Virus record (IMG/VR): IMGVR_UViG_3300033545_000001
Coordinates: 55,393 to 119,392 of that record
DNA: 64,000 nt
Strand: one strand, 5' to 3'
Source: a virus
The stretch's first letter is position 1; every line of letters begins with the position of its first letter. The translations under genes were made by a program, and so were the position numbers. Positions 21,700 to 61,844 of this stretch are shown piece after piece. The notes under the pieces are model-generated. The model did no database searches. It worked only from the letters and a program-made list of their open reading frames with translations, and had not been told where the DNA came from.

Positions 21700-21733
21700 A
21701 AGAAAGACCCTCTCAATTGAGAGGGTCTTTCTT
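21700..21733. terminator. Bidirectional terminator
   Basis: A perfect 34-base palindrome built from AAGAAAGACCCTCTCAA and its reverse complement. It has A-rich and T-rich ends on each side, so it should stop transcription from both directions: from the decoration gene on the plus strand and from the endonuclease gene on the minus strand, whose stop codon overlaps it. Confidence 0.85.
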
Positions 21734-22361
21734 ATTTCTCTGACAGGTATTTAGCAAGGTGCAGTAATCTGTCAGGGTTATCTTTAAAGAAGCCTTCTGT
21801 AATGTTGCATTCTAAATGAAGTAGGCCTCTTATGCATTTTCCACATGATGCCCCTCTCGAACAGCAGGCGTGGTCATGATCTATGACTAGTCTTCTGCCC
21901 TCTTCTGGGGGTTCTAAGCATCCTATGCATACTCCTGCCTGGTTATTTAAAAGCTCTATATATTTATGCGAGCTTATGGAATATCTTTGGAAAGCTTCTT
22001 CTTTTCTCCTGCACTCCCAAGAACAGTAGATTTGCCTGTTTGGCGAATATGTTCTGGATACAATAAATTCTTTGCCGCAGAAAGCATGAGCACATATTTT
22101 CTGAATTATGGGCCTGCCTGGGCAGTGTATCCCGCAGGTAATTTGATTTGAAGCTCTTGGTACGTATTCATTGCCACATACTGTACACACGCTTAAAGTG
22201 ACATAGTTTGCTTTAGACATATCCCTAGCTTTAGCTGTGTACCTACACCTCCTAGGTGAAGGGCAGAACTTTTGACTTTTCCTTACAGGGATGTAGTTTT
22301 CATTGCATACAGGGCAAAATCTTACAGACTTATCCCATATTCTATCTTTTCTGGTTCCCAT
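21732..22361 (-). CDS. Endonuclease VII-type homing endonuclease, reverse strand
   Basis: The only clear reverse-strand gene in the window, 209 residues. It has several Cys-pair modules (CPVC, CTVC, CGIHC, CAHAFC) and a C-terminal endonuclease VII-like core: LVIDHDHACC, then CGKCIRGLLHLECN. The frame runs back to 22415, but ATG 22361 has the AAAGGG ribosome site and lies downstream of its own promoter. It interrupts the decoration-capsid gene pair and looks like a mobile cassette carrying promoter, gene and terminator. Confidence 0.8.
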   Translation of the reverse strand: MGTRKDRIWDKSVRFCPVCNENYIPVRKSQKFCPSPRRCRYTAKARDMSKANYVTLSVCTVCGNEYVPRASNQITCGIHCPGRPIIQKICAHAFCGKEFIVSRTYSPNRQIYCSWECRRKEEAFQRYSISSHKYIELLNNQAGVCIGCLEPPEEGRRLVIDHDHACCSRGASCGKCIRGLLHLECNITEGFFKDNPDRLLHLAKYLSEK

Positions 22362-22386
22362 TTTTCCCTTTCTACAGACTTCTGTC

Positions 22387-22415
22387 ATATTAATATTAAT
22401 CGGAAGTTCTGTCAA
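22387..22415 (-). promoter_or_regulatory. Reverse promoter TTGACA-17-TAATAT
   Basis: On the minus strand, -35 TTGACA (22415-22410), 17 bases, then -10 TAATAT (22392-22387). It precedes the endonuclease ATG at 22361 by about 25 bases. The longer frame of the endonuclease would start on top of this promoter. Confidence 0.6.
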
Positions 22416-24544: not shown

Positions 24545-25150
24545 ATGGGTGACGGATTCCCAACATTTACTGTAGCTCAATTGGCTCAATTCTCTGGCAG
24601 GCCACTACAGTCATATACCCCATATGCTGATCAAGCATTGATTCAAGCTGTAGTAATTTTTATGCTTGTTACTCAGGTAGAGTCATGGCCTACAGATGCA
24701 TTATCTCAGCAGATTGCTACACTGGGCATCCTTCAGTATGCAGATGTATTAGTTCTAGAGCAGCCATTCCAGCAGGTTACTCACAACCCATTCCAGAGTC
24801 AGACAATTGGTTCTACTTCCTACTCTAAGCCAACAGCCTACATGCGTGGAAATGCACAGGCTAATGCTCTTAAGGGTGAGGCTACAGGAATTCCATTCTT
24901 TGACTACGCAGTACAGAAGCTTGCTCTTCGTACAGAGTTCGGCGGAATTTACGGGTTCTCACTAGAGCTTGAAATGGGTCGCGGAGATGGCGATGTTTGG
25001 GTACGTGTAGATCACAAGACTGGTGAAATTAAGCTAGTAGGTCCAGCAGAGCGCGATCGTGAGCTTGGAATCTTCGCTGGTGGAGATATGAATGCTGAGA
25101 ATTGGCCCGCCGATGAAGGTAATGGCAGCTCAGGCGGGATGTGGTCATAA
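24545..25150 (+). CDS. Head-tail adaptor protein
   Basis: A 201-residue protein with the features of gp6-like adaptors: FTVAQLAQFSGRP, then QALIQAVVIFMLVTQVESWP, a helical body for the portal-bound ring. The C-terminus is NGSSGGMWS. A second copy of this ending (GGGGMWS) closes the following endonuclease gene, which shows where that element entered. The annotation as adaptor rests on position and helical pattern. Confidence 0.6.
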   Translation: MGDGFPTFTVAQLAQFSGRPLQSYTPYADQALIQAVVIFMLVTQVESWPTDALSQQIATLGILQYADVLVLEQPFQQVTHNPFQSQTIGSTSYSKPTAYMRGNAQANALKGEATGIPFFDYAVQKLALRTEFGGIYGFSLELEMGRGDGDVWVRVDHKTGEIKLVGPAERDRELGIFAGGDMNAENWPADEGNGSSGGMWS

Positions 25151-25666
25151 GTGGCTAGAGTGCAAGAGCCTTACTGTAATCAGCCACACTGTGAAGATGA
25201 GTCTTTTTCCTTAGACATGTGTAGAAGGCATTATTCTAAGCATTTAAAAGGCAGAGGGCCTAAGTCATGTGAGCATTGCAGTGTTCCTATGAATAATTTA
25301 GGCAGAAACCAAGGCCAGCGTAAGTATTGTTCTACATGCTCTCCAGTAGGGGATTCTGAAGCTAATCAGCTTTTATGGAAATACCAATTGTCTCGTCCAG
25401 AGTATGATGCTATGTATGAAGATCAGTTGGGCTTGTGTGCTATGCCAGGGTGTGACAGAGAAGCTAAAGAAGTAGATCACTGGCACGGCTGCACAGAGGG
25501 CCATAAAAATCATAGGGCTTGTAGTAAGTGTGTTAGAGCATTACTGTGTAGGAATTGTAATAATAGACTAGAGCCAGTGGAGGACGAAATGTTTAGAGAA
25601 GCAGCACTGGCCTATCTAGATCAGTTTGAAAACCCTGGCAGTGGCGGAGGAGGTATGTGGAGCTGA
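25151..25666 (+). CDS. Endonuclease VII-type homing endonuclease
   Basis: A 171-residue mobile endonuclease. The N-terminal half has Cys pairs (CNQPHCED, CEHC, CSTC) and the C-terminal core reads AKEVDHWHGC followed by CSKCVRALLCRNCNNR. GTG 25151 follows the adaptor stop directly. The last residues (GSGGGGMWS) repeat the end of the adaptor with other codons, so the frame has probably taken over the displaced original gene end. The next gene starts at the overlapping TGATG. Confidence 0.85.
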   Translation: MARVQEPYCNQPHCEDESFSLDMCRRHYSKHLKGRGPKSCEHCSVPMNNLGRNQGQRKYCSTCSPVGDSEANQLLWKYQLSRPEYDAMYEDQLGLCAMPGCDREAKEVDHWHGCTEGHKNHRACSKCVRALLCRNCNNRLEPVEDEMFREAALAYLDQFENPGSGGGGMWS

Positions 25667-30796: not shown

Positions 30797-33700
30797 GTGC
30801 CTAGTGTACCTGGAGATCACACATACGATGTGGTTTATCGCGCAACTGCTGACTTCACAGATCTCTTCGCTGAAGTAGCAGCAGCCAAGGCTGCGATGGA
30901 AGAGCTCAAAGAGAGCACTGACGATACCAACTCTTCTAGTGAAGATGGCGCTAAGGCCGCCGCAGATGCTGAGGAAGCTCGCACTAAGGCGATGCAGGAT
31001 GCCTCAAAGGCAGCCAAGGAATATGAGCAGCAGCAATTGTTGCTCAACAAGGCTGAGAACAATGGCTTCAACACGCCCCAGGAAGCTAAAGCTTTCCGTG
31101 ATCAAGATACTCAGAGTCTTTTACAGCACAACATTCAAGAAAATGGTGGACGCACAAGTCCAGACCAGGCTCTTCAAGATATTCGCAATAAGACTGCTGC
31201 CCTAAATAGTGAGAATGCATCTCTTGCTGAAATGCGAGAGACCATTGATGAGTCCACTAACTCTCTCCAGGATGCCAGTAAGGCAGCTCAAGATTTTCAA
31301 GACAGCCTAGAAGATCTTGAAGAAGGTTCTCAGGATGTTAAGCAGGCTGTAGAAGATACAGGTCAAGCTCTAGATGATTTCTCTTCTAAGTCTAAGAGTG
31401 CTGGAAGTAATGCTTCTCAAACTGGAAACAATCTAAAAGATATTGCTGAGGGAGCTTCTATAGCTGCCAGGGGTATTGATGATGTAAATCAATCTCTTGA
31501 TGAAAGCTCTAAGGCATTTTTGGAATATCAGCAAGCTCGCAAAGATGCCAACTCTGCTGCAAACCAGACTCCTACAACTTCATTAAACACTTCTATTGGC
31601 AATGCCTCAACTGACATTGAAGAGGCCATGCGTGAGCAAGCAGCAGCAATTGCTGCTGCCAATCAGTCTCGCAATAACATGTCAGCTGAATCGTTAGCAG
31701 AGTCAGCTGAAAAGAATGCTGCAAACAATGTCTCTACTGGGCTGTTCTCGGCAGAGGCTCTTAATGGCGCAAAGAACTTTGCAGAAGAAGTAGAGGAAGA
31801 AGTAACTCCTGCTGTCAAGAATGCTGACAGTGCTTTGAAGGCTGCTGGGCAATCTGCTTCTGGTCTAAGCGATGAATTTGAAGCTTCTACTGCTCAAGGT
31901 GTTGTTTTATCAGCTGCTATGGCTGACGTGGACAAGAAGGTAGAAGGACTTTCTAATAACCTCAGCAGCGGCTTCTCTTCTGCTTTTGTTAAGCAGCTGG
32001 GTGGAGTTCTCAAGGATTACAATTCTGTAGCTAAGGCCGCTACTGGCTTAGATGACCCTTCTGCACGTCAGTGGGTAGTTGATACAGGCAATGAACTTGA
32101 CAGTCTGGCTGTGCAGCTTCAGGAGACTCAGAAGGGCATAGAGGGAGTTGGAGGAGCATTTGAATCCTCTGGGGATGATGCTGACAACTTCGGAACTGTG
32201 CTTTCAAAGGTTAATAGTGCGTCTGCTGTAATTCTAGCTAGTAACCTAGAATCTATTGAGAACAAGCTAGCTAAGATGCACAGCGATCTTGAGACTGGCG
32301 GTAATGACTGGGATACCTTTGCATCAAGTATTGCCAAGACTAACTCGCAGCTGAATGCTGCCACAAAGCAAGCAGCTGCACTAGATGATCCTGCTGCTAA
32401 GAATGCTGTAACTGATCTTAAGATTGCATTCGATTCTTTGTCTATGCAGGCATTGGCATCTAGAGATGATGTTGATGTATTCACTGCTTCTGAAATGAAG
32501 AACAGTGCAGCTTCGGTAATTCTAGCTAGTAATATAGAAGCTATTGAAGACAAGCTCACTAAGATGAGCACTGATCTAGAAGCTGGTGGAAACGACTGGG
32601 ATGCCTTCTCAGTAAGTATTGCTAAGACCAACGCTCAGCTTAACGCTGCTTCGAAGCAGGCAGATGCTCTAGATGATCCTGATGCAAAGAATGCTGTCAA
32701 TGATTTGAAGGAAGCCTTTGGTTACCTATCTCAGCAGGCACTTGCATCTAAGGACGACCTAGATGTATTCACTGCTGCTGAGAGCAAGAACAGTGCAACT
32801 TCTGTACTGCTTTCTAGTAACATAGACAGTGTAAGGTCTAAGGTAGACGATCTAGAGAATTCTCTGAAGTCTGGGGACTCTGCCTGGAATGACTTCATTG
32901 TAGCTCTAACTAAGGCCAACACTGAGTTGGCAGGCGTAGGAAAGCAGGCTGGGACTCTAGGAGATACTGAATCTAGAAATTCTATAAATGCTCTACAGCT
33001 AGCTCTTAATGATATAGCTGTACAGGCTCTAGGCTCTAAAGATGATTTGGGAGCATTCAAGACTGCTGAGGATGTGGCAGCTGAGAGTGCTGCCAAGCTT
33101 GCTGCTGCCACAAAAGATGCAAAGACAGCTGCCTATGAGGCAACAACCACTTATAAAATATTCGCTAGTGGCCTTAAGGCAATTTCTAATGAATTTGCAT
33201 CTTTGTCTGCTCAGACAAAAGCAGAAGGCGGAGGAAGTGGATTCTTAGGATTCCTAGGTAATTTCTTAGGTGGAGGACTTAGCGGAGTTTCTTCAGGATT
33301 CAATGCTCTAGCTACTGCTGCTGGAAGCGCACTTCCCCTAGTTCTAGGTCTTTCTGTAGCTATTCCTGCTGTTGCTACAGCTATTGTAGGTCTTGCCACA
33401 ATAGTTGGAGGTTTAGTAGGCGCTATGGCGCCAATGGTGGGTATATTTATCACCTTCTTGCCTATTATTCTAGGTGTGGCAGAGGCTGCTGGAGTTCTAT
33501 ATCTTGCTATTGAACCACTGATCTCTGCTGTCAATGAATTCAGACAGGCTACTACCAAGAGCGGAGCAGAAGCTGCCCTCAAGGGACTTAGTCCTGTCAT
33601 GGCACAGGCAGCTAAAGACATTGCTGGATTTATCAAGGCTCTTACTGGAGCTAAGGGAGCCCTTAAGGATATTGGCACTGAGGTATTCTCTCCTCTCCTG

Positions 33701-36700
33701 GGATCTCTTAGTAAGTTAAGTACTGTAATTAAGCCTGTTGAAGAGGCTTTGAATACAATGGCTGGAGCTGCGGGTAAGTTCCTACAGCCAGTTCTTGCTG
33801 GATTCGTCAATTTCTTGGACAGCTCTAATTTCCAAACCTTGACAAAAGCAGCTGCTGACGGACTTGTGTACTTTGGTGGAACTGTATCCAACTTCCTAGA
33901 TGCTTTGGGCAAGTTGGCAACTGATGCTGCTCCTTACACAGTTCAAATTGCTAAGATATTTGATGATCTGTCAAAGGCTCTAAATACATCTGTATCTGTA
34001 GGATCTAGTGATGGAAGTATCAGCACATTCCTCAATCAGATGATGACAGGATTTGGAATCCTGTTTAACATCATCAGTGGAATCTTTGATATTCTAGCCA
34101 AGTGGGGTCCTGCTCTTGCTCCTATTGGCAATCTTATTGGAAATGATCTAGCTAAGGGACTCCATGATGCAGCTAATGCTGCTGACAGTGTTGACTTTAA
34201 GCAGTGGAACAGTGAGCTTACCCAGTTCATTTCAGGAATTGGAACAGCGGCCAAGGGTATTGGTACACTATTTGCAGCTCTAGTAAATAACAAGTTCCTA
34301 GGATTCCTTGGAGACATCCTTACTGATATTGGACATATTGCTACTGCTCTGGCTCCTATTGTCAAGTTCTTTACTGACATTGTTGCAGGATCTCTACCTG
34401 CTCTACAGAAGATATTCAATGATATCTCTGGTGTAGTAGTGGGCATATTGAAGCCTATTGATGACTTCCTGGATAAGGTAGAGCAGAACAAGGACGCCAT
34501 GAAGGTCCTTTCCGGAATCTTCACTGCTTTGGCTTCTCTGGTTATCGCTGGAAGTGTTCTCTCATTCTTCAGCATGCTGGGAGGATTGGCAGGTAAGGGA
34601 TTCTCAGGCCTTATAGATCTTATCAACAAGATCCCTGGAATCAATCTTCCTGGAGGATCAGGCGGAAGTAGTGGAAGTAGCACTCCCGTAGTAAGCGCTA
34701 TCAACAAGCTTGGTGTTGATGTAAGTGCTAATGCTGATGAGAATGCTGCAAAGATTGTCACAGCTATTACTGGGGAAGAGACTGAAGAAGGAGTAGCAGG
34801 AGAAGGTGAATCAGCAGCTGGTGCTGAAGCTGCTGGTATTGGAGCTACTGCTACTATTGCGGGCATTGTTACTGCTGTTTTGGCATTCCTTGGTGCAGGA
34901 TTCCTTATCTACGAGATTATTCATGGAGCTGCTGATCCTAATTCTACGGTTCACAGGGCTAACAGTTATGTTACTCAGCATGATGGGGCTAATTGGTGGG
35001 ACAGGGAAGTAGCTGGACCCGCTGATAGAGATGTGTATGATCCTACTGGCCGTGGAATTGCTGGCGCCGCTAAGGGTCTTGCTGATATTAATAAGACTGC
35101 TGTTCCTGACTTCTTTACAGATGACACTCAGTGGGAGAAGGATGCTAATAAGGCAATGATCGCATTCTTCACAGGTAACGCTGGTTGGGAGAAGGCATCT
35201 AATACAGCTATTCCTGACTTCTTCACAGACAAGTCTGAATGGGAAAGGACTGCGCAGAGAGCTGTAGGGGACTTCTTTACCAATAATGATGAGTGGGAGA
35301 AGGCTTCTGAAACAGCAGTTGGACATTTCTTCACAGACAACACTGCTTGGGAAAAGGCTGCTAATCATGCTATAGCTGATTTCTTTACAGACAATACTGG
35401 CTGGGAGAAGGCTGCTGATAAGTCTATTTCAGGGTGGTTCAGCAGTGCTGGCGAATGGTTCATGCGTGATGTGTATGAGCCTATCGAGAAGTGGGTAACT
35501 AACGACTTTGTCGGATTCTTCACTAACTCAGTAGCCCGCTGGTTTACTGATGCTGGCTCATGGTTCATGAGAGATGTTTATGAGCCTGTAAAGAATTGGG
35601 TTACTGGAGACTTTGTAAACTTCTTTACTAGCTCTATTCCTCACTGGTTCGATGATGTAACCACTTGGTTCATGAGAGATGTCTATAATCCAGTAGAGCA
35701 TTGGGTTATGAATGATATCCCTGGATTTTTCACTAATTCTATCCCTAACTGGTTCTCCAGTGTGTGGAAGGAATTCCAGAAGAATGTTGTTGATCCTATT
35801 GGTAACTGGCTGACGGGTACTGGAAGTGATTCACTGACAGGATTCTTTGAAGCTGGATTCAAGGATGCTCTTAACGCTGTAATCAAGGACGTATTCAACA
35901 ACGGACTTATCCATCTATTGAATGATGCTCTTGGTGTAGTAGGTCTGAAGATTCCTAACATTCCTACATTCGCAGCAGGAGGCCATGTACAAGGCAACCT
36001 AGGAGAAGCTGATAACAGCGATTCTGTATGGGCTAAACTGACTCCCGGAGAATTCGTTATTCGTAAGAGAGCTGCTGCTGCTCTTGGACCAGACACTCTG
36101 GCTCAATTGAATCAGGCAGACAGGCCAGGAGCTATTGGCAAGCACGCTAATGGAGGATACGCAGGAGCCTTCGCAGGCGGCGGTATAGTAGGAGACGTAG
36201 AAGGCTGGGGAAGCAGCCTGCTTTCAGGTGCTGAGGGCCTAGTAGGAGACGTGGCTAGCTGGGCTTCAAGTTTCGTCTCCGGAGCCCTACAGAGTACGTT
36301 TAATGAAGCTTACAAGGCTATCGTTAATCCTATCCTTGGCACCTTGCCTTCAGGCACTATTCCTACAGGAATGGCTACCTTGGCTGCTGGAAGTGTGAAG
36401 AATGCTGTAGATGTGTTCTTAGGAGCTCAGGATCAGAAGGCTGATGCTGCTGCAACAGGAGCAGTTGGAGGCTCTCTTCCAACTGGAGATCACAAGCAGA
36501 TCATTGTTGAAGCTCTTCAGGCTGCTGGAGTTGCTGCTAATCAATGGCCTGTGTGGGAAACAGGATTGAACACTCTTATTACAAGAGAGTCTAGTTGGAA
36601 TCCATCTTCTGTTAACACAACTGACTCTAACGCTGCTGCTGGGAATCCTTCAGAAGGACTTGCTCAGACAACTGGTACTACCTTCAATGAGTACCATGTG

Positions 36701-37078
36701 CCAGGAACTTCTGACGACATTCTAGATCCTGTAGCTAATGTTGCTGCTGCCATTAAGTATATTGAAGATGTATATGGTTCAATTACTAATGTTCAGCAGG
36801 CTAATGCCAATGAGCCTCCAAAGGGTTATGCTACAGGCGGATTCGTGGGAGATCCAACTTTGGGAATGGGATTTGCTGCTGGAGGTTACAGTATGGCTCC
36901 TACAGCTGGAACTCCTTCAATGAAGTCTCAGGCTGGAATGAATGCTGGTGGAAGACTTTCTGGTCCTGGAGTTCATGTGGAAAATTTGAACATCACTAAT
37001 CCAATTCCAGAGCAGTCAGGCGATTCTCTACAGAGAGCAATGACTCGCTTGCGCGTCTATGACGGGAGAGGCAACTAA
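30797..37078 (+). CDS. Tape measure protein with transglycosylase domain
   Basis: The longest gene: 2093 residues, implying a tail near 300 nm at about 0.15 nm per residue. Order: helical N-terminal part; four repeats of about 96 residues (nt 31940-33090); a hydrophobic region of about 65 residues (nt 33330-33525); a second hydrophobic segment near nt 34860-34920; six 18-residue FFT-x4-WE repeats (35111-35434); three and a half 35-residue WF-x5-WFMRDVY repeats (35435-35818); then a lytic transglycosylase-like domain (nt 36486-36800) with likely catalytic Glu1931 in TRESSWNP. GTG 30797 follows GGAGG. The C-terminus VYDGRGN recurs in a scar just downstream. Confidence 0.9.
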   Translation: MPSVPGDHTYDVVYRATADFTDLFAEVAAAKAAMEELKESTDDTNSSSEDGAKAAADAEEARTKAMQDASKAAKEYEQQQLLLNKAENNGFNTPQEAKAFRDQDTQSLLQHNIQENGGRTSPDQALQDIRNKTAALNSENASLAEMRETIDESTNSLQDASKAAQDFQDSLEDLEEGSQDVKQAVEDTGQALDDFSSKSKSAGSNASQTGNNLKDIAEGASIAARGIDDVNQSLDESSKAFLEYQQARKDANSAANQTPTTSLNTSIGNASTDIEEAMREQAAAIAAANQSRNNMSAESLAESAEKNAANNVSTGLFSAEALNGAKNFAEEVEEEVTPAVKNADSALKAAGQSASGLSDEFEASTAQGVVLSAAMADVDKKVEGLSNNLSSGFSSAFVKQLGGVLKDYNSVAKAATGLDDPSARQWVVDTGNELDSLAVQLQETQKGIEGVGGAFESSGDDADNFGTVLSKVNSASAVILASNLESIENKLAKMHSDLETGGNDWDTFASSIAKTNSQLNAATKQAAALDDPAAKNAVTDLKIAFDSLSMQALASRDDVDVFTASEMKNSAASVILASNIEAIEDKLTKMSTDLEAGGNDWDAFSVSIAKTNAQLNAASKQADALDDPDAKNAVNDLKEAFGYLSQQALASKDDLDVFTAAESKNSATSVLLSSNIDSVRSKVDDLENSLKSGDSAWNDFIVALTKANTELAGVGKQAGTLGDTESRNSINALQLALNDIAVQALGSKDDLGAFKTAEDVAAESAAKLAAATKDAKTAAYEATTTYKIFASGLKAISNEFASLSAQTKAEGGGSGFLGFLGNFLGGGLSGVSSGFNALATAAGSALPLVLGLSVAIPAVATAIVGLATIVGGLVGAMAPMVGIFITFLPIILGVAEAAGVLYLAIEPLISAVNEFRQATTKSGAEAALKGLSPVMAQAAKDIAGFIKALTGAKGALKDIGTEVFSPLLGSLSKLSTVIKPVEEALNTMAGAAGKFLQPVLAGFVNFLDSSNFQTLTKAAADGLVYFGGTVSNFLDALGKLATDAAPYTVQIAKIFDDLSKALNTSVSVGSSDGSISTFLNQMMTGFGILFNIISGIFDILAKWGPALAPIGNLIGNDLAKGLHDAANAADSVDFKQWNSELTQFISGIGTAAKGIGTLFAALVNNKFLGFLGDILTDIGHIATALAPIVKFFTDIVAGSLPALQKIFNDISGVVVGILKPIDDFLDKVEQNKDAMKVLSGIFTALASLVIAGSVLSFFSMLGGLAGKGFSGLIDLINKIPGINLPGGSGGSSGSSTPVVSAINKLGVDVSANADENAAKIVTAITGEETEEGVAGEGESAAGAEAAGIGATATIAGIVTAVLAFLGAGFLIYEIIHGAADPNSTVHRANSYVTQHDGANWWDREVAGPADRDVYDPTGRGIAGAAKGLADINKTAVPDFFTDDTQWEKDANKAMIAFFTGNAGWEKASNTAIPDFFTDKSEWERTAQRAVGDFFTNNDEWEKASETAVGHFFTDNTAWEKAANHAIADFFTDNTGWEKAADKSISGWFSSAGEWFMRDVYEPIEKWVTNDFVGFFTNSVARWFTDAGSWFMRDVYEPVKNWVTGDFVNFFTSSIPHWFDDVTTWFMRDVYNPVEHWVMNDIPGFFTNSIPNWFSSVWKEFQKNVVDPIGNWLTGTGSDSLTGFFEAGFKDALNAVIKDVFNNGLIHLLNDALGVVGLKIPNIPTFAAGGHVQGNLGEADNSDSVWAKLTPGEFVIRKRAAAALGPDTLAQLNQADRPGAIGKHANGGYAGAFAGGGIVGDVEGWGSSLLSGAEGLVGDVASWASSFVSGALQSTFNEAYKAIVNPILGTLPSGTIPTGMATLAAGSVKNAVDVFLGAQDQKADAAATGAVGGSLPTGDHKQIIVEALQAAGVAANQWPVWETGLNTLITRESSWNPSSVNTTDSNAAAGNPSEGLAQTTGTTFNEYHVPGTSDDILDPVANVAAAIKYIEDVYGSITNVQQANANEPPKGYATGGFVGDPTLGMGFAAGGYSMAPTAGTPSMKSQAGMNAGGRLSGPGVHVENLNITNPIPEQSGDSLQRAMTRLRVYDGRGN
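32216..33080 (+). repeat. Three tandem 288-nt repeats in tape measure gene
   Basis: Equivalent GTA codons lie at 32228, 32516 and 32804, exactly 288 nt (96 residues) apart. Each unit has SV/AV-ILASN, a helix ending in DLE-GGNDWD-F, then QLNAA-KQA-ALDDP-AKNAV and ASRDDVDVFTA. The third copy is more diverged, and a still weaker copy precedes the first. Confidence 0.85.
35111..35434 (+). repeat. Six 54-nt (18-residue) repeats in tape measure gene
   Basis: Six units start at 35111, 35165, 35219, 35273, 35327 and 35381. The consensus is FFTDNxxWEKAAxxAIxD with Phe-Phe and Trp-Glu fixed. They are likely regular helical turns of the tape measure rod. Confidence 0.9.
35435..35818 (+). repeat. 35-residue WF repeats in tape measure gene
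   Basis: Units begin at 35435, 35540 and 35645, with a partial fourth at 35750. Conserved parts are WF-x5-WFMRDVYEP, NWV, and FFTNSI. The Trp and Phe spacing is typical of aromatic repeats in tape measure proteins. Confidence 0.9.
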
Positions 37079-37126
37079 CTGCCGCTTGTAGTAAAAGTAC
37101 AGTCATTGCGCAGTTAGGAGCCTTTT

Positions 37127-37174
37127 ATGAAGTGCAGTTCTTGCTTGGAGAAGTATGATGGACGTGGAAACTAA
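37127..37174 (+). pseudogene. Scar of a homing endonuclease gene after tape measure
   Basis: A 15-codon frame with a good ribosome site (TTAGGAGCC). The first nine codons (MKCSSCLEK) look like the N-terminal zinc part of the endonuclease genes in this genome; the last six plus stop (YDGRGN) repeat the end of the tape measure gene. The two copies of these seven codons differ at five bases, all synonymous. The body of the endonuclease appears to have been deleted. Confidence 0.6.
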
Positions 37175-37195
37175 TGGAGCCCATGGAGGCGTTAG

Positions 37196-38086
37196 ATGAC
37201 TAACAGCGATAACGAATATTGGTTCGTAGGTGGAACCAGTCTGAATCAGTACTGCTGGGCTGTTAACACTTTTGCTGCTGGACGAGCTGTTCCAGTTCTG
37301 CGTGGAAATAACATTCAAGTAGCTTACATTCCCGGTCAGATTCATCGTCAGAAGTATCCTGACAGTAGAACTTTGGACTTTGCCATGTTTGTGGCTGCTG
37401 TTGATCCCACAACTGATCAGCCTCCATCTCAGGCACAGAAGCTGATGTTCAGCAACAATGTAAAGACATTACAGAAATTGTTCTATAATTACAATGGTCA
37501 GGTTGCTGGACAGCAGATTCCTCTTACACGTCAATGGTACTATTCTCTTCCAATAAATATAGGAATGCCTCAAGGTGTTCCCACTATGGTACAGGCAACA
37601 GCTCAAGCTGAAATAGCTGGGGACCTTCAACTTACTATGAATGGTCCCCATTCGGCTAGTCTTACAGTAAGTCTTTTGTTAGCTGATCCCTATTTCTATG
37701 GGCCAGCTATTACAGGAGCTGTACCAGTTAACACTACTGCCTCAAGTGTTATCAATACTGGTGATGATGTTGCTGCGTATTTCAATAATTCAGTAACATT
37801 GTATGGTCCTTTGCAATATCCTAGGCTATTGAATGCTACAACAAGTCCAAATACATGGTTCCAGCTTAATACTGTTATCTTAGCTGGGGATTCTGTAACA
37901 CTGGATATTGCCAACTTCACAGCTTATAGAGCTTCTGACGGGGCTAACCTGTCAGGACTTCTGAGCCATTCGGGGACTACTAGGTGGATGAGTTATTATC
38001 CAGGAGTTAACAGTCTTATTCTGAGTTCTAATAATAGCGGAGATACAGGAAGTGCTACATTTTCCTTTGTACCTCCTTATGTCTAA
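37196..38086 (+). CDS. Distal tail (Dit-like) protein
   Basis: A 296-residue protein after the tape measure, the standard position of the distal tail protein. The family-like features are an N-terminal beta domain (IQVAYIPGQIHRQKYPDSRT, LDFAMFVAAVD), QKLMFSNNVKTLQKLFYN, and a later LTVSLLLADPYFYGPA, as in siphovirus Dit proteins. It joins the tail tube to the baseplate. ATG 37196 follows GGAGG. Confidence 0.75.
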   Translation: MTNSDNEYWFVGGTSLNQYCWAVNTFAAGRAVPVLRGNNIQVAYIPGQIHRQKYPDSRTLDFAMFVAAVDPTTDQPPSQAQKLMFSNNVKTLQKLFYNYNGQVAGQQIPLTRQWYYSLPINIGMPQGVPTMVQATAQAEIAGDLQLTMNGPHSASLTVSLLLADPYFYGPAITGAVPVNTTASSVINTGDDVAAYFNNSVTLYGPLQYPRLLNATTSPNTWFQLNTVILAGDSVTLDIANFTAYRASDGANLSGLLSHSGTTRWMSYYPGVNSLILSSNNSGDTGSATFSFVPPYV

Positions 38087-38136
38087 TCCGATTGTTTATA
38101 TGATTTTACTCCTAGAGTCCATGGAGACCAGCATAC

Positions 38137-38331
38137 ATGACCCAAAATCGTTCTTTTTCTGCTGATCACGATCACTCTTGCTGCCCAAACCCTGCAAAAA
38201 GTTGCGGAGAGTGTATAAGAGGACTGTTATGTCAACGTTGTAATATGGCTTTGGGTCTCCTAGCTGATAATGTAGAAACTTTATTGAGGGCAGTAAATTA
38301 CCTAAGTGGTGAGTCTAATTACACAGAATAG
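38137..38331 (+). pseudogene. Truncated endonuclease VII-type homing endonuclease
   Basis: A 64-residue remnant with only the nuclease core: [20 protein letters not shown] then [15 protein letters not shown]. The first five residues (MTQNR) are a copy of the start of the tail-fibre genes downstream (ITQNR, STQNR), and the two nucleotide copies differ only at synonymous positions over TQNR. The N-terminal zinc region is lost. Its stop lies inside the next gene. Confidence 0.75.
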
Positions 38332-39271
38332 ATATTACTCTAATCTAGCTCAGGCAACATTTATTGCCAATACAGGCGGATTAGGTATTTCTACAGCTTC
38401 TCTTCAGGTTACTGCTAATGAGAACTGGCCTACTCAGTTTCCATTCGCTCTTTGGTTAGAGCCGAATACTAACAATGCTGAAGTAGTCCTTGTAACATCT
38501 GGAAGTGGCACTTCTATTAGTCCTTATGCCATTACACGTGGCTATGATGGAACTATTGCCTTTGCTCACGCTTCTGGAGCTATTGTAACCCCTGGCGTTA
38601 TTGAGCTTGACCTGGCTGATCCTCAGAATCATATTAATCTATCAGGATCGACTTCAGGTGCTCACGGTCTTCCAGCCTCAGCTTGGTTGGGAGGACAGCT
38701 TCAGCTTATCAGCACTCAGACTGTCCTCACTCCACAGCCAACTGTGACTTTCAACTCAGCTGTGTTTGCAACTATTCCATCATCTATAAATCACCTGCTA
38801 GTAATGGTTCAGGCTCTGTCCTCTTCCCTGGCTAATAATAATGATTATTTAATGGTACAGTATAATGGATATACAGGCAGCTTTTACTGTGATGAATTCC
38901 TTCTAAATGTCAATGGGACTAACACCACTGGCAACTCTGCCTCTAACACTTCCTCATCAGGTATGACTAACAACTGGCATATCAACTCCAGCATGGCTAC
39001 TTGTGGAGTTATTATGACTACTGATGATGGAATAGCTTCTACAGGATACTGTGAGGTAGTATTCCCTAACTTTAAGAATACTGCAAATACTGCTCCAAGA
39101 GGTCATAACTTCAAATTCGGTGGAAGTAATAACACAGTTCCTTATATAATCTCAGGGAATGGCAGTGGATCTTGTGCTAATGTGACAGCTCCTATTACTT
39201 CACTGACATTCCAGACTATTCTAGGGTATAACTTCACAGCTAACTCTGTATTCCAGCTGTATGGTTTCTAG
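38306..39271 (+). CDS. Minor tail/fibre protein, paralogue 1
   Basis: A 321-residue protein whose first 135 residues are shared with the next gene: [22 protein letters not shown], the RGYDGT motif and [15 protein letters not shown]. The C-terminal part differs and probably forms the receptor-binding or surface domain. The start codon was altered by the endonuclease remnant: GTG 38306 or 38309 with a weak ribosome site. The two paralogues lie head to tail and come from tandem duplication. Confidence 0.7.
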
Positions 39272-52716: not shown

Positions 52717-53744
52717 GTGGGCACACTAAATGGTCAGATGTAAAGGCGGCAAGAGGGTATGTGTCTAAGCCCAGGATTCAAACTAAGAAGACTACTTACA
52801 CCATGGATTATCCTGAGGCAGTAAAGTTTGCTGAAACTCAGATGGAAGTTTATTGGCTGCCAACGGAAATCAATTTGGAAAAGGATGTTCAGGATGTCCG
52901 AGTCAATCTTACGGATGCTGAGCGTCATGGCGTGGTTACGACACTTAAGCTCTTTACGCTGTACGAACTCCTTGTTGGTAATGAGTACTGGGGCGGGCGC
53001 GTCAAGCGTGCATTCCCGCGTCCAGATATCGAATTCATGGCCACTACATTCGGGTTTGTGGAGATTGGAATCCATGCACGATTCTACAACCGTCTGAATG
53101 AAGTCATGATGCTGGACACTGACGAATTTTATGAATCTTATGTAGATGATCCTGATCTCAAGGCTCGTATGGATTTCGTCACAGAGGTACTGACAGATGA
53201 CAATCTTCCTGTAGCACTAGGTGCTTTCTCCATGCTGGAGGGTGCTGTTCTCTATAGTTCTTTCGCATTCCTCAAGCACTTCCAATCCCAGGGGAAGAAC
53301 AAGCTTAAGAATGTATGTTCTGGTATCAACTTCTCAGTACGCGACGAGAATCTTCATGCTCTTGCTGGATCGTGGCTTTACAACACTCTGATGAGTGAGA
53401 TGGAAGCGTTGGGACAGCTCCCTGCTGAAAAGCTCCATGAGATCACAGTATCTCTTGAGGGAGTAGCTCAGTTAGTTTATGAGCATGAAGAGCGTATCAT
53501 CGATATGATTTTCGAGAATGGTCCTATTGAAGGACTTGAGCCAGAAGATATGAAGACTTTCGTCAAGTCTCGTATAAATCTATGCATGAGAAATCTGAAT
53601 TTGGAAGAGCCTTTCGAGGTTACTTCCAATCCTGTAGCTGACTGGTTCTACAAGGGAATCAATAGCTACCAATTTCATGACATGTTTGCTGGAGTTGGAT
53701 CAGAGTACAATAGAAATGTATCTGCTGATGGTTTTGAGTGGTAA
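52713..53744 (+). CDS. nrdB: Ribonucleotide reductase small subunit
   Basis: The class I ribonucleotide reductase radical subunit, 343 residues from GTG 52713 (AAGGAG upstream). Likely metal ligands are in the helix with FVEIGIHARFY (E117, H121), EGAVLYSSFAFLKHF (E176) and DENLHA (E212, H215). Tyr125 is the probable radical site. The spacing of E117 and H121 is one residue longer than in the classical ExxH motif. It supplies dNTP synthesis with NrdA, from which it is separated by an inserted endonuclease gene. Confidence 0.85.
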   Translation: MSGHTKWSDVKAARGYVSKPRIQTKKTTYTMDYPEAVKFAETQMEVYWLPTEINLEKDVQDVRVNLTDAERHGVVTTLKLFTLYELLVGNEYWGGRVKRAFPRPDIEFMATTFGFVEIGIHARFYNRLNEVMMLDTDEFYESYVDDPDLKARMDFVTEVLTDDNLPVALGAFSMLEGAVLYSSFAFLKHFQSQGKNKLKNVCSGINFSVRDENLHALAGSWLYNTLMSEMEALGQLPAEKLHEITVSLEGVAQLVYEHEERIIDMIFENGPIEGLEPEDMKTFVKSRINLCMRNLNLEEPFEVTSNPVADWFYKGINSYQFHDMFAGVGSEYNRNVSADGFEW

Positions 53745-54297
53745 TAAATTATGTCCTGACTGCCAAGAACACAAAGATTTCACAGAGTTCGGCAGTAATA
53801 AGGCTAGGTCAGATGGAGTTGCTTCTTATTGTAGATTGTGCTACTCCAAAAGGCAGCGAGATATAAGGACTAGCCGTAAAAATAATCCAGAGGCTCCTCC
53901 AGAAAGTAAAAAGTGTCCTCAGTGCAATACTGTAAGGCACAGGGAAGACTTTACAAAGTCTTCTAATAATGTTGGAGGCCTTTCTGGATGGTGTAGAGAA
54001 TGCTCGTCTATAAATCTTATACTTAGAAAGTATAAACTGTCTAAAGAAGAGTATGACAGGCTTTTAACAGCTCAAGAGTATAAATGTGCCATAAGAGGGT
54101 GTGACAGGCGCCCAGAAGCAGTAGACCATGACCACTCTTGTTGTCCAGGAGTTGTAAGTTGCGGTAAATGTGTCAGAGGGATACTGTGCAGCAATTGCAA
54201 CAGAGGCCTAGGGTATTTTTCAGATAGTGTGCCTAGGCTACATGGAGCTATAGAATACCTAAATCTGTCAACCGACTGCTGTTCCGATTTTAGATAG
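53728..54297 (+). CDS. Endonuclease VII-type homing endonuclease between nrdB and nrdA
   Basis: About 189 residues. It has CPDC and CRLC in the first zinc part, a second zinc part (KKCPQCNTVRHREDF), a conserved helix (RKYKLSKEEYDRLL) and the nuclease core [20 protein letters not shown], then LCSNCNRG. The start is uncertain: ATG 53728 within the end of nrdB lacks a ribosome site. The AT-rich, early-gene-like codon choice differs from nrdB. It separates two genes that are normally adjacent. Confidence 0.8.
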   Translation: MVLSGNKLCPDCQEHKDFTEFGSNKARSDGVASYCRLCYSKRQRDIRTSRKNNPEAPPESKKCPQCNTVRHREDFTKSSNNVGGLSGWCRECSSINLILRKYKLSKEEYDRLLTAQEYKCAIRGCDRRPEAVDHDHSCCPGVVSCGKCVRGILCSNCNRGLGYFSDSVPRLHGAIEYLNLSTDCCSDFR

Positions 54298-57935: not shown

Positions 57936-58008
57936 GGCTGTGTAGCCCAATGGAAGAGGCGCCGGATTCAAGTCCCGGTCAGTGAGGGTTCGAGTCCCTC
58001 CACAGCTA
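57936..58008 (+). tRNA. tRNA with anticodon CAA (Leu) and short variable loop
   Basis: Acceptor GGCTGTG/CACAGCT, anticodon loop TTCAAGT, T arm GAGGG-TTCGAGT-CCCTC. The variable loop is only five bases, whereas bacterial tRNA-Leu normally has a long variable arm. One mismatch closes the anticodon loop. CCA is not encoded. A gene begins two bases later. Confidence 0.75.
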
Positions 58009-58009
58009 C

Positions 58010-58969
58010 GTGAAGAAACATAGAGTAGTAGACGCGTCTCCTGGTGCTGGAGGAATGCTCAAAGGCTTCCTAGACTCCGGGCGATTTGATGTGTCTGGAT
58101 ATTATTCAGAAATAGACTCATATGATGAGCAGACTTTAGTAGCCAATCTGCCAAGTTTTAGACAGAAGCCTCCATGTGATGTACTTGTAGGATCTTTTTT
58201 TGATCCCTCTCTAGAGAGTGATCAATACTACAGGAATATCATGAGAGAGTTGAAGCCAGCTATCTCTTTAGTAGAGATTCCAGCCTCAGGATATAAGTGG
58301 TCTAACCCTCCAGGATCTTGTTTCGGCTATGCTCATGAATGGTACGTCCTTGATGCAGTAGACTATCTTGTTCCTCAGCACCGTAAACGTTGTTGGGTTG
58401 TAGCCATTGATAGAAGCCTAGTAGGACCTAATTTCAAGATTGGTGCTCCTGCTCCCAGAAGTCATCCACTTACTGTGCGTGATGCTATAGGAGATGTTCC
58501 TTTTCAAGCTAAGTTTGTCCCCTGGAACCTGGCTAATGAACATTCAGGGATTTCTATGCATAGTATACTTACGCCTACAGTTAATAGGGCAAGGTATGAT
58601 ACTATTCCTCCAGGAAGTTCTGCTGATGCCATTCCAACTGATATGAGACCTTCTTACAGAAAAGATGACATAGGCCCCTCTGATATTTATGGTAGGCTTA
58701 TGTGGGACTATCCTGCTAAAGAGATTACTCCTAGAATAGATGCCAATTCAGGAAGGTTTATTCATCCTCAATGGGTTGATATTGACAGTACTGATAATGT
58801 AAACAGACTTATATCTCCACTAGAGGCTGCCAGGTTGCAGACTTTTCCAGACAGTTACGTGTGGATAGGAAATAGACATTCTGTGCTCAGGCAGATCGGC
58901 CAAGCTACGCCTCCAGCTCAAGCTATGTGCTGGGCTCATTATTTAGCCGACCTACTTGACAACGAGTAG
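58010..58969 (+). CDS. DNA cytosine-C5 methyltransferase homologue lacking PCQ Cys
   Basis: A 319-residue relative of C5-cytosine methyltransferases. Motif I (VDASPGAGGMLKGF, 7-20), the QRR-like motif VIII (PQHRKR), motif IX (HPLTVRDAIGDVP) and motif X (RQIGQATPPAQA) are present, as is the motif VI Glu (SLVEIP, E89). The motif IV region reads DVLVGSFFDPS, where the catalytic PCQ should be, so the nucleophilic Cys is missing. It may be inactive, regulatory, or use other chemistry. GTG 58010 follows the tRNA 3' end by one base, without a ribosome site. Confidence 0.75.
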   Translation: MKKHRVVDASPGAGGMLKGFLDSGRFDVSGYYSEIDSYDEQTLVANLPSFRQKPPCDVLVGSFFDPSLESDQYYRNIMRELKPAISLVEIPASGYKWSNPPGSCFGYAHEWYVLDAVDYLVPQHRKRCWVVAIDRSLVGPNFKIGAPAPRSHPLTVRDAIGDVPFQAKFVPWNLANEHSGISMHSILTPTVNRARYDTIPPGSSADAIPTDMRPSYRKDDIGPSDIYGRLMWDYPAKEITPRIDANSGRFIHPQWVDIDSTDNVNRLISPLEAARLQTFPDSYVWIGNRHSVLRQIGQATPPAQAMCWAHYLADLLDNE

Positions 58970-58984
58970 CAGGTGTGTTAGAGT
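58956..58984 (+). promoter_or_regulatory. Promoter TTGACA-17-TAGAGT
   Basis: -35 TTGACA at 58956-58961 in the end of the methyltransferase-like gene, 17 bases, -10 TAGAGT at 58979-58984. It would start transcription near 58991 for the genes from 59025; a GAGGAGGA ribosome site lies in the leader. Confidence 0.75.
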
Positions 58985-59024
58985 ATAACTAAGAGAAACG
59001 GCCTATTATGAGGAGGACGTACTA

Positions 59025-59216
59025 ATGAGTTATGTAGATGAATACCGCAAGATGGTTTCCACCAGCAATGTGATTGTTCAGGCTAGTAATGACACTCCTT
59101 TCAAGGTTTTCTCTTACCCTTCCCCTGAAGATGGCTGGGACATGTGGCAGAAGGATTACGAGACTGTAATTTTCACCGAAGATGACGATTGGCTAGAGAA
59201 TGACTGTGCAGGTTAA
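59025..59216 (+). CDS. Small acidic protein
   Basis: A 63-residue acidic protein (YVDEYRKMVSTSNVIVQASN, then YETVIFTEDDDWLENDCAG). Unknown family. It has a strong ribosome site and overlaps the next gene by 17 bases, so the two are likely coupled. Confidence 0.55.
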   Translation: MSYVDEYRKMVSTSNVIVQASNDTPFKVFSYPSPEDGWDMWQKDYETVIFTEDDDWLENDCAG

Positions 59217-59736
59217 CAACCCACTTGCTGCTGCCAACCCTGGAGATATTGGTGTTACCAGTATCTCTGGGGATGTTGGCAAGCTCATTACTTTTGGTGA
59301 GTGGCTTAATGGCAACAAGGACGACAAGTATGACCATGCTTTCATTTATGTAGGTAATGGTCAAATAGTAGAAGCTGAGCCTGGAAAGCAAGGTGCTTGG
59401 CTTGGTAATGTTTCAGAGTACATGGATGGCAGACCTTTGGCATTTTCTACAGGCAAGCTTGCTCTAGATGATGGTCAAGGTCAGAAAATAGCAGATATTG
59501 CTCTCAGTCTTGTAGGTACCAAGTATTCATTCCTTGATTATTTCTCTATTGCTGCACACAGATTCCACATGCCTATTCCTGGCTTGAAGAGTTATATTGC
59601 TTCTAGTAAGCATATGATCTGTTCGCAATTGGTGGATTATGTTTACCAGCAGGCTGGATTCAAGCTGTTTACAGACGGCCGCTGGGATGGATACGTTACT
59701 CCAGCAGCACTTGCTGAGAGAATTGGCGCAAAGTAG
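59200..59736 (+). CDS. Permuted papain-like (YiiX/NlpC-P60-type) peptidase
   Basis: A 178-residue cysteine peptidase of the permuted papain fold. The His is in YDHAFIYVGNG (H46) and the Cys in HMICSQLVDYVYQ (C141), with the family segment SLVGTKYSFLDYFSIA between. Such enzymes cut peptide or amide bonds; the group includes cell-wall amidases. Followed by a small membrane protein, it might take part in lysis, but no signal peptide or wall-binding domain is seen. Confidence 0.7.
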   Translation: MTVQVNNPLAAANPGDIGVTSISGDVGKLITFGEWLNGNKDDKYDHAFIYVGNGQIVEAEPGKQGAWLGNVSEYMDGRPLAFSTGKLALDDGQGQKIADIALSLVGTKYSFLDYFSIAAHRFHMPIPGLKSYIASSKHMICSQLVDYVYQQAGFKLFTDGRWDGYVTPAALAERIGAK

Positions 59737-59744
59737 GATGAGAA

Positions 59745-59990
59745 ATGGCTTACACAAAGTTCTTCCCCCGTGATACTAAGGTCATGGCGCAGGATTATAA
59801 CAATTATGAAGAGAGATCGAACAAGGCGCGTCAAGTCCTCGACTTCGAGCCTCTTGTACGAGTCATTGCTGATGGGGATGCACGAATGACAATGCCTGAG
59901 CTTCTTGCTGAGGCTGTCGCTGCTGAACTCAACTCAGCTTACGACAAGGGCTTTTACGATTCTAAGCATCAGCCTAAGGATATGGATTAG
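59745..59990 (+). CDS. Small hypothetical protein
   Basis: An 81-residue mostly helical protein (DYNNYEERSNKARQVLDFEP, MTMPELLAEAVAAELNSAYD). ATG 59745 follows AGGATGAG. Its stop overlaps the next GTG (TAGTG). Family unknown. Confidence 0.55.
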   Translation: MAYTKFFPRDTKVMAQDYNNYEERSNKARQVLDFEPLVRVIADGDARMTMPELLAEAVAAELNSAYDKGFYDSKHQPKDMD

Positions 59991-60163
59991 TGAAGCGTAT
60001 TAAAGTACGTATATCCCAATGGGATGGTTATGATTCCAAGAGAGTACTATACGCTGGAATTAGTACGTTGATAGGACTAGGGAGCGTCTTTGTGGGCGCT
60101 CCTATAGTTTTAGGTATGTGGGTTGGCTTGCTGATTTATACGTGCTTGACAGCCATCGCGTAG
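59990..60163 (+). CDS. Small membrane protein (holin-like)
   Basis: A 57-residue protein with a basic N-terminus (KRIKVRISQWDGYDSKR) and a hydrophobic part long enough for one or two membrane helices (YAGISTLIGLGSVFVGAPIV, LGMWVGLLIYTCLTAIA). GTG overlaps the previous stop. Size and topology would suit a holin or antiholin next to the papain-like enzyme, but small membrane proteins are common in phages. Confidence 0.55.
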   Translation: MKRIKVRISQWDGYDSKRVLYAGISTLIGLGSVFVGAPIVLGMWVGLLIYTCLTAIA

Positions 60164-60174
60164 CATGCTAGTCT
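60146..60174 (+). promoter_or_regulatory. Promoter TTGACA-17-TAGTCT
   Basis: -35 TTGACA at 60146-60151 within the membrane protein gene, 17 bases, -10 TAGTCT at 60169-60174. It would serve the small proteins from 60210 with a leader of about 30 bases that carries GGGAAGGA. Confidence 0.7.
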
Positions 60175-60209
60175 TACTACATCAGCCCGACAAGGGAAGG
60201 ATACAGAAT

Positions 60210-60353
60210 ATGGCTAAGATTCCTGATAAGCCACCAGCAAATCGCTCGGAAAGAGCTGCTGAAGAGGCTATTGCTCAAGGTGGAGGTCCTGCTCAAGGTG
60301 GCGCTCCTGCTGGAAAGCCTCAACCAGTTCCTCCGCCTCGTCCACATCCTTAA
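60210..60353 (+). CDS. Small Pro/Gly-rich protein
   Basis: A 47-residue low-complexity protein (IPDKPPANRSERAAEEAIAQ, then a Gly/Ala stretch and PVPPPRPHP). Start ATG 60210 behind GGGAAGGA; the frame reaches 60165 on top of the promoter. No fold or function can be assigned. Confidence 0.5.
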   Translation: MAKIPDKPPANRSERAAEEAIAQGGGPAQGGAPAGKPQPVPPPRPHP

Positions 60354-60372
60354 TTAAAGATAAGGGGCAAAC

Positions 60373-60723
60373 ATGAAGGATTTTATTTCAGACCACATAG
60401 GCGGTCTTCTGCTGACAGGAGCTGCTACAGTACTTGTGCTGGCAACTGGCGGCTATGATGTTGTACTGCATTCTACTCAGCGTACAGTGACTGCAACTGT
60501 TACTAAGACATGGATTCAGTATTCTGATAATCGTACTATCAATCTCATTGGCACTAACGAAGGTGTTTTTGAGGATGCAGACAGTCCATTCTATGATAAG
60601 TTTAATTCGTCTGACTACTTCAATGAACTTACTGTAGGTAAGACTTACACGTTCGATGTGACTGGTTGGCGCATTCCGATTCTTTCAGCTTGGCCTAACA
60701 TCGTATCCTGTCAAGACTGCTAG
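60373..60723 (+). CDS. DUF1523-like membrane-anchored protein
   Basis: A 116-residue protein with one N-terminal membrane helix (GGLLLTGAATVLVLATGG) and an external domain. The segment NEGVFEDADSPFYDKFNSSD and the ending TGWRIPILSAWPNIV resemble the DUF1523 family found in phages and bacteria. Function unknown. It is the last protein gene before the tRNA array. Confidence 0.6.
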   Translation: MKDFISDHIGGLLLTGAATVLVLATGGYDVVLHSTQRTVTATVTKTWIQYSDNRTINLIGTNEGVFEDADSPFYDKFNSSDYFNELTVGKTYTFDVTGWRIPILSAWPNIVSCQDC

Positions 60724-60726
60724 AAC

Positions 60727-60755
60727 TTGACAAGTGGAGGAAGACATGGTAGACT
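60727..60755 (+). promoter_or_regulatory. tRNA array promoter 1, TTGACA-17-TAGACT
   Basis: -35 TTGACA at 60727-60732, 17 bases, -10 TAGACT at 60750-60755. First of two tandem promoters before the tRNA array. Confidence 0.75.
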
Positions 60756-60792
60756 TGGGAAATCCAAGGCAAGATGGTCCTCAACTAAGGAC

Positions 60793-60821
60793 TTGACAGC
60801 ATCCGATAGTTCTGCTAGAAT
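60793..60821 (+). promoter_or_regulatory. tRNA array promoter 2, TTGACA-17-TAGAAT
   Basis: -35 TTGACA at 60793-60798, 17 bases, -10 TAGAAT at 60816-60821. This is the closest to consensus in the window, as expected for stable RNA transcription. The 110 bases between it and the first tRNA contain small hairpins (AGAACC-TCT-GGTTCT near 60836-60850) and no gene that I can support. Confidence 0.8.
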
Positions 60822-60935
60822 AGTCTTACAGGCGAGAACCTCTGGTTCTTAACCTGGCTGGGACCGGCAGGAAGCTGGACCTAGAGACTTGGTACTAGTA
60901 TTCTTTTGGTTACGCTAGTACGTGAAGTCAGGCAT

Positions 60936-61006
60936 GCGGGGTACGCTAACGGTACGCGGGAAGGCTCATAACCTTCTGTACGTGGGTTCGAATCCCATCC
61001 CCCGCT
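60936..61006 (+). tRNA. tRNA-Met (CAT)
   Basis: Anticodon arm GAAGG-CTCATAA-CCTTC and T arm GTGGG-TTCGAAT-CCCAT are perfect. The acceptor GCGGGGT/CCCCCGC has a mismatch at its base. It could also be a modified Ile tRNA reading ATA, since both have CAT. Confidence 0.8.
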
Positions 61007-61023
61007 ACGTAATAATTTAATAA

Positions 61024-61095
61024 CTGGGTGTGGTGTAAAGGTAAGCATGGCTGCTTTGGATGCAGGCGGATGGGGTTCGAGTCCCCGCTCCCGGA
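61024..61095 (+). tRNA. tRNA-Pro (TGG), first copy
   Basis: Acceptor CTGGGTG/CTCCCGG, anticodon loop TTTGGAT in a CTGC/GCAG stem, T loop TTCGAGT. The D arm is short, as in other tRNAs of this array. CCA is not encoded. Confidence 0.75.
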
Positions 61096-61127
61096 CGTAA
61101 CAGTTTCTATGATTTTAATATTATAAT

Positions 61128-61198
61128 CTGGGTATCGTATAGTGGTAAGACGTCTGTTTTGGGAACAGATGACGGAAGTTCGATTCTTCCTACCCGGA
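61128..61198 (+). tRNA. tRNA-Pro (TGG), second copy
   Basis: Acceptor CTGGGTA/TACCCGG, anticodon arm TCTGT-TTTGGGA-ACAGA, T arm GGAAG-TTCGATT-CTTCC. It has the same anticodon as the preceding tRNA. Confidence 0.8.
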
Positions 61199-61210
61199 CG
61201 TAGTAACTAT

Positions 61211-61282
61211 GGCCTATTCGTATAGTGGCAAGTACCCCAGACTTCCAATCTGGCGACACCGGTTCGAATCCGGTATAGGTCT
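61211..61282 (+). tRNA. tRNA-Gly (TCC)
   Basis: Acceptor GGCCTAT/ATAGGTC, anticodon arm CCAGA-CTTCCAA-TCTGG, T loop TTCGAAT. An endonuclease-like start codon follows two bases later. Confidence 0.85.
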
Positions 61283-61284
61283 CT

Positions 61285-61386
61285 ATGAGAAAGATACCAG
61301 CGATAAAAAAGTGTTCTCATTGTGAAGAAGAGTTTAGTACTCTCAATTTAATCCAAAGTCTAACTAAATATGTCTTAGTGGTGTAG
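61285..61386 (+). pseudogene. N-terminal remnant of a homing endonuclease gene
   Basis: A 33-codon frame beginning MRKIPAIKKCSHCEEEFS, the typical zinc start of the endonucleases in this genome, then losing similarity. It begins two bases after tRNA-Gly(TCC) and stops inside tRNA-Gly(GCC). The nuclease core is gone. Confidence 0.55.
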
Positions 61387-61442
61387 CGGTAACATACTAG
61401 CTTGCCAAGCTGGTGTCACGGGTTCGAATCCCGTATAAGACT
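61372..61442 (+). tRNA. tRNA-Gly (GCC)
   Basis: Acceptor GTCTTAG/ATAAGAC (one mismatch), anticodon arm CTAGC-TTGCCAA-GCTGG, T arm CACGGG-TTCGAAT-CCCGT. A small GAGGC-GAAA-GCCTC hairpin follows in the spacer near 61473-61486. Confidence 0.85.
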
Positions 61443-61490
61443 CGCAGTATCAAGGAAGTTAAGTAGTGCCAAGAGGCGAAAGCCTCGAAT

Positions 61491-61563
61491 GTATCCAAAG
61501 CTGACTCGGATCAAGCGCTTGGTTGAAGCCCAGGAGAACTCAGTTCGACTCTGAGTGGATGCA
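61491..61563 (+). tRNA. tRNA-Phe (GAA)
   Basis: Acceptor GTATCCA/TGGATGC, anticodon arm CTTGG-TTGAAGC-CCAGG, T arm CTCAG-TTCGACT-CTGAG, discriminator A. Position 8 appears to be A in place of the usual T. Confidence 0.8.
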
Positions 61564-61576
61564 CGCAGTAACTGAT

Positions 61577-61651
61577 GGTGGCTATAGCTTAGACGGATAA
61601 AGCGTCTGACTGTGACTCAGAAGACCGAGGGTTCGAGCCCCTCTAGTCACC
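61577..61651 (+). tRNA. tRNA-His (GTG)
   Basis: Acceptor GTGGCTA/TAGTCAC with an encoded extra G at -1 (61577) facing C73, the identity mark of tRNA-His. Anticodon arm TCTGA-CTGTGAC-TCAGA; T arm GAGGG-TTCGAGC-CCCTC. Confidence 0.9.
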
Positions 61652-61667
61652 CTTATAAACTTCATAT

Positions 61668-61742
61668 GCCTCTGTAGCTCAGCGGATAGAGCACCCGGCT
61701 ACGAACCGGGGTTTTGCGGGAGTTCGATTCTCTCCAGGGGCA
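61668..61742 (+). tRNA. tRNA-Arg (ACG)
   Basis: Acceptor GCCTCTG/CAGGGGC, D arm GCTC-AGCGGATA-GAGC, anticodon arm CCCGG-CTACGAA-CCGGG, T loop TTCGATT. The A34 would be converted to inosine by the host. Confidence 0.9.
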
Positions 61743-61773
61743 CTCCTCTTGCCAGGGACTCACAATTAAATAT

Positions 61774-61844
61774 GCCGGATTCGTCTAATGGTAGGGCCTT
61801 TGTTTTACACACAAATGGCGGGGGTTCGATTCCCTCATCCGGTA
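61774..61844 (+). tRNA. tRNA-Val (TAC)
   Basis: Acceptor GCCGGAT/ATCCGGT, anticodon arm TTTGT-TTTACAC-ACAAA, T arm GGGGG-TTCGATT-CCCTC. Confidence 0.85.

Follow-up and report, generated by a model that had tools for sequence, protein, structure and literature searches.

Our analysis of a 64,000-nucleotide stretch of the viral record IMGVR_UViG_3300033545_000001 (positions 55,393 to 119,392; the whole stretch is hereafter the window) suggests that the region between its tape measure protein (TMP) gene and a fibre gene very probably bears the scars of homing by free-standing homing endonuclease genes (HEGs) of the endonuclease VII type, which travel with a copy of the host gene's end. We also consider it likely that endonuclease VII-type phage HEGs commonly spread in this way, as cassettes that carry a replacement gene end or start and leave hybrid genes (for methylases, portal and head proteins and the tape measure) in diverse phages, even on both sides of one gene.

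The TMP gene (30797..37078, + strand) is an open reading frame with an SLT domain near its end (Pfam SLT, E 1.2e-11), and its ending in present use is YDGRGN and a stop (37058..37078, + strand, TAT GAC GGG AGA GGC AAC TAA). After a gap of 75 bases the same six residues and stop return (37154..37174, + strand, TAT GAT GGA CGT GGA AAC TAA), this time in frame with the nine residues MKCSSCLEK (37127..37153, + strand), to which they are joined in one small frame (37127-37174). Codon comparison bears out the original prediction that the ending is repeated with five silent base changes, and these fall across four codons. We take MKCSSCLEK to be what is left of the N-terminus of an HEG of the endonuclease VII type, as it resembles the zinc-ribbon starts of intact relatives (e.g. 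MKHCPKCGEEK at locus L019). A duplicated host gene end with largely synonymous differences is found flanking endonuclease sequence. The random match that the original prediction had considered for the seven codons is not supported, since a contiguous, stop-anchored match of six residues arose in 0/100,000 Markov shuffles of the 117-base region downstream of the TMP gene (the best was four residues, reached twice), and among the window's 188 long open frames this is the sole such repeat, the next best being three residues.

The earlier description of the site was incomplete, as it supposed that the body of the endonuclease gene had been lost. In fact a C-terminal endonuclease VII half remains 1 kb downstream, past a tail gene, and it lies at a second, mirror-image recoded duplication (38137-38332). 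Here a frame of 64 residues (38137-38331) opens with MTQNR (38137..38151, + strand), the start of the fibre gene, which directly follows the tail gene in the related contig L003, and runs on in frame into the endonuclease part (38152..38331, + strand; Pfam Endonuclease_7). The match of 38137-38328 to this profile (E 1.6e-13) covers only positions 36-81 of 82, the profile's second half. Because neither the first CxxC nor the helix region ahead of it is present, so that zinc site and catalytic core are incomplete, we regard this sequence as a remnant and not as an active endonuclease VII-type member. The fibre gene itself (38306..39271, + strand) has what appears to be a replacement start, with a recoded copy of TQNR at 38321-38332. 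Considering the MTQNR relic together with this recoded TQNR, recoded copies of both gene ends therefore stand outside the endonuclease parts, with the N-terminus of the endonuclease to the left and its C-terminal half to the right of a block made up of YDGRGN and its stop, the tail gene and MTQNR. We read the inner copies (37154-37174 and MTQNR) as native and the outer copies as imported.

The direction of such a transfer can be followed in cultured phages. In Klebsiella phages ZX4 and BUCT541 the gene order is methylase, endonuclease VII, next gene; in Escherichia phages ZCEC08, Bas77 and HC6 the methylase is joined directly to the same next gene. Between about nt 40 and nt 440 the methylase of ZX4 and BUCT541 shares 93-100% identity with that of ZCEC08; thereafter identity drops to about 45% up to the end, and in ZX4 ~540 bases of imported 3' part come from a different homologue. 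Behind the endonuclease stands a relic, QVAAEFVKAFMESIK and a stop in ZX4 and QVAAEFIKAFMRSV and a stop in BUCT541, while the empty-site methylases end in QVAAEFIKAFMRSV and a stop (QVAEEFIKAFMRSV and a stop in HC6). When 39 bases are compared with the empty end of ZCEC08, the relics agree at 33 and 36/39 and the functional hybrid end at 24/39. Since the relics match the empty end while the methylase 3' half diverges, this comparison shows that, at least in the ZX4/BUCT541 family, the copy downstream is what remains of the native end and the one upstream was imported. This pairing of an uninterrupted relative's ending with a foreign upstream end is seen in ZX4 and BUCT541; at the focal site no relative is close enough. 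Moreover, since so long a stretch of the ZX4 methylase comes from another homologue, we think that the silent differences at the focal site more probably reflect descent from a diverged donor phage than recoding under selection to abolish the cut site. Of the original prediction that an endonuclease gene entered the TMP 3' end with a replacement ending, the core idea is thus upheld by this comparison and by the parallel cases described below.

The original prediction had also taken this for an unusual mode of invasion, yet it is not a one-off, as it recurs in other endonuclease VII genes. IMG/VR, bacterial genomes and the window together supplied 199 distinct endonuclease VII genes, of which 184 were testable. 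For each, the C-terminal eight residues encoded upstream were scored against stop-anchored peptides immediately downstream of the endonuclease, and shuffled pairings gave the expectation. Scores of at least 25 were reached at 6/184 genes (0.05 expected), among them a second site in the window, and scores of at least 20 at 8/184 (0.30 expected). Of the 1,198 controls, which were other genes at the same loci, three reached 25 or more, but L103 and L128 among them in fact flank endonuclease VII genes, which leaves about 1/1,198. Clear gene-end duplications include those at loci L026, L176, L142, L124, L169, L177, L013, L011 and L128, and in ten cases the residue-identical codon pairs use the same codon in 16/49. 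Mirror duplications at gene starts were found at L189, at L054 and in the cultured Leptolyngbya phage Lbo-JY46, where 13/15 residues are identical and only 5 codons are the same. A long relic occurs at L094, with 73 diverged portal-gene codons on both sides of the endonuclease; the portal relatives there are too distant for telling direction. Given this repeated occurrence in other phages, gene-end replacement therefore looks like a general route of invasion that spares host genes. High frame-on-frame scores at GC-rich loci such as L187, L192, L199 and L077 were judged spurious, and the repeats at L191 and L179 were set aside as lying within or between HEGs and not at host gene ends. The DNA polymerase gene of Escherichia phage LinBro (L244 729-4250), whose two annotated parts enclose an endonuclease VII gene, was likewise rejected, having no end duplication; its split is perhaps intron-associated. 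At L135 (2767-3740) both flanks of an endonuclease VII gene carry the same 67 residues of a structural gene, either as a gene end or through an internal insertion, and L177 carries a second endonuclease VII gene flanked by the 49-residue duplicated end of a glycosyltransferase-like gene (4666-4812 and 5535-5681).

As the most economical account, we envisage that the enzyme would cut an empty phage genome close to where a gene ends or starts, that repair would copy the diverged donor through the homologous part of the gene into the HEG, and that the native cut end would be joined on the far side. The host gene would thereby turn into a working hybrid whose end (TMP) or start (fibre) is imported, remaining whole because the imported segment completes it, and the native end would persist as a relic fused to the HEG. 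On this view the left scar would consist of the native TMP end preceded by the first nine codons of the HEG, and the right scar of the native fibre start followed by the C-terminal half of the HEG.

As for the number of events, we lean slightly towards two decayed or aborted homings over a single HEG that the tail-gene segment divided in two, because a single split requires a donor without a tail gene at the TMP-fibre position. A single split would itself be a variant form of gene-end replacement, so that its probability is to be weighed against two events only. It supposes a donor with the order TMP-HEG-fibre, into which the recipient's TMP end, tail gene and fibre start were inserted, replacing ~80 middle HEG codons. 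We hold this history to be quite possible, if the less probable of the two: the left scar has N-terminal codons only and the right the C-terminal half only, both junctions are in frame, and the parts would be complementary. However, it also needs two cut sites in the recipient, the 27-base left part cannot be linked to the right part, and the gene order in L003 is TMP-tail gene-fibre.

Other explanations fare less well. Gene ends duplicated in place with no transfer from a diverged phage, followed by synonymous drift or by selection to escape the endonuclease, would also be expected to leave silent-only differences in the functional copy, but amino acids would not be expected to stay conserved for long in a relic that lies outside its host gene, and in ZX4 the imported 3' part comes from a different homologue while the relic matches the empty site; we consider this origin unlikely. 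An intron or intein joining the two endonuclease halves is suggested by the N- and C-terminal parts on either side of an intervening 1 kb, but is very improbable given the stop codons and intact tail gene in between and the ~80 residues still missing. A group I or group II intron at the locus was rejected, as Rfam scans gave no match. Chance repetition of a short C-terminal peptide, for which it can be said that the repeat is only six residues and a stop, is hardly credible considering the shuffles, the uniqueness of the repeat in the window, and the second duplication with a nuclease half at the same locus.

Several observations nevertheless weigh against reading the site as homing scars. MKCSSCLEK is too short for profile assignment, and because TQNRYY starts recur among paralogous fibre genes, the MTQNR copy taken alone could have another history. 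The spacer ahead of the tail gene (37175..37195, + strand) has only a weak likeness to the L003 spacer between TMP and tail gene (p 0.15), and most endonuclease VII genes are without a detectable end duplication. Moreover, searches of cultured phages and IMG/VR found for the focal site neither a relative with a full HEG nor a close empty-site or donor relative. The full endonuclease, or the uninterrupted ending of the 37154-37174 type, that the original prediction named as support from relatives was not encountered; the only orthologous relative, L003, is uninterrupted and ends in VQGVRG. The DNA of the focal region had no match among cultured phages, the fibre gene had no relative in IMG/VR other than the L003 contig, and among 30 TMP-end loci in IMG/VR a homologous ending was present in none but that contig.

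The gene between the two HEG remnants (37196..38086, + strand) is intact, its counterpart in Arthrobacter phages is a minor tail protein, and it is 60% identical to the gene at the same position in L003. The spacer that follows it (38087..38136, + strand) can be aligned with the uninterrupted L003 spacer (p 0.0015), as would be expected of a native tail gene-fibre spacer. The L003 TMP (ORF 17-4960) has an apparent intein in its lysozyme-like domain (~4160-4680 and upstream, CVPLDTMILTKRGWLTYDKV..), which is absent from the TMP of the window.

The phage genome holds five endonuclease VII matches, four of them above cut-off besides the remnant at 38137. At one of these an intact endonuclease VII HEG (25151..25666, + strand) ends in GGGGMWS and a stop (25646-25666), a recoded copy of the ending SSGGMWS and stop of the upstream structural gene, a probable head-tail connector (24545..25150, + strand); the codons are mostly different, and the endonuclease is absent at the orthologous junction in the L003 genome. 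Another lies between the ribonucleotide reductase subunit genes (53734-54297) and begins within the end of the small-subunit gene; this nrdB-endonuclease-nrdA junction shows no convincing end duplication. On the opposite strand, a further endonuclease VII gene (21732-22415, - strand) is conserved in position in the related genome to which L003 belongs (L231 1096-1773). An HNH gene (62254-62721) and an endonuclease VII gene (62797-63222) are packed between tRNA genes, of which 19 are clustered at 57936-63966, and the final codons and stop of the latter are supplied by the 5' end of the next tRNA.

The closest precedent comes from fungal mitochondrial gene hybrids, in which mobile ORFs replace gene 3' ends, as in Allomyces atp6 and in Glomus atp6, atp9, cox2 and nad3 (PMC3630166). 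As here, an endonuclease ORF stands behind a hybrid host gene with an imported C-terminal end, a native relic lies downstream, and the differences are largely synonymous. However, those mitochondrial endonucleases are of the LAGLIDADG or GIY-YIG families, while ours are of the endonuclease VII type, reside in phages and include mirror cases on the start side, and the focal site retains no more than remnants of HEGs. F-CphI of cyanophage S-PM2 is a free-standing homing endonuclease of the endonuclease VII type, and similar to the genes described here it has the endonuclease VII catalytic motif and a gene beside its target (PMC6083498); its own genome is protected through the psbA intron, and the accessible text of that report describes no gene-end replacement (PMC6083498). 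The seg and mob HEGs of T4-like phages also stand free between genes, and some overlap upstream gene ends, although the accessible part of that source speaks of split and not of restored genes and mentions no duplicated gene ends (PMC2988022). In the ShiLan element, an HNH insertion in actinophage methylase genes, the insertion opens with 11 in-frame residues that are similar to the 11 following the insertion site, the likeness being greater in protein than in DNA, which its authors leave unexplained (PMC11855218). ShiLan differs in being HNH rather than endonuclease VII, and in lying within the methylase frame without in-frame stops. Save for this hint, the searchable literature, including the accessible parts of PMC10448857 and PMC2988022 and with most subscription papers outside its scope, gave no description of HEG-borne gene-end replacement in phages.

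Gene-end replacement explains in a simple way how a free-standing HEG can have conserved coding sequence as its target and insert there with neither intron nor intein, as the missing piece of the gene comes along with it. It makes a direct link between endonuclease invasion and the mosaic, hybrid genes of phages, gives a possible reading of the ShiLan repeat, and is open to testing in cultured phages by setting ZX4 and BUCT541 against Bas77 and ZCEC08.
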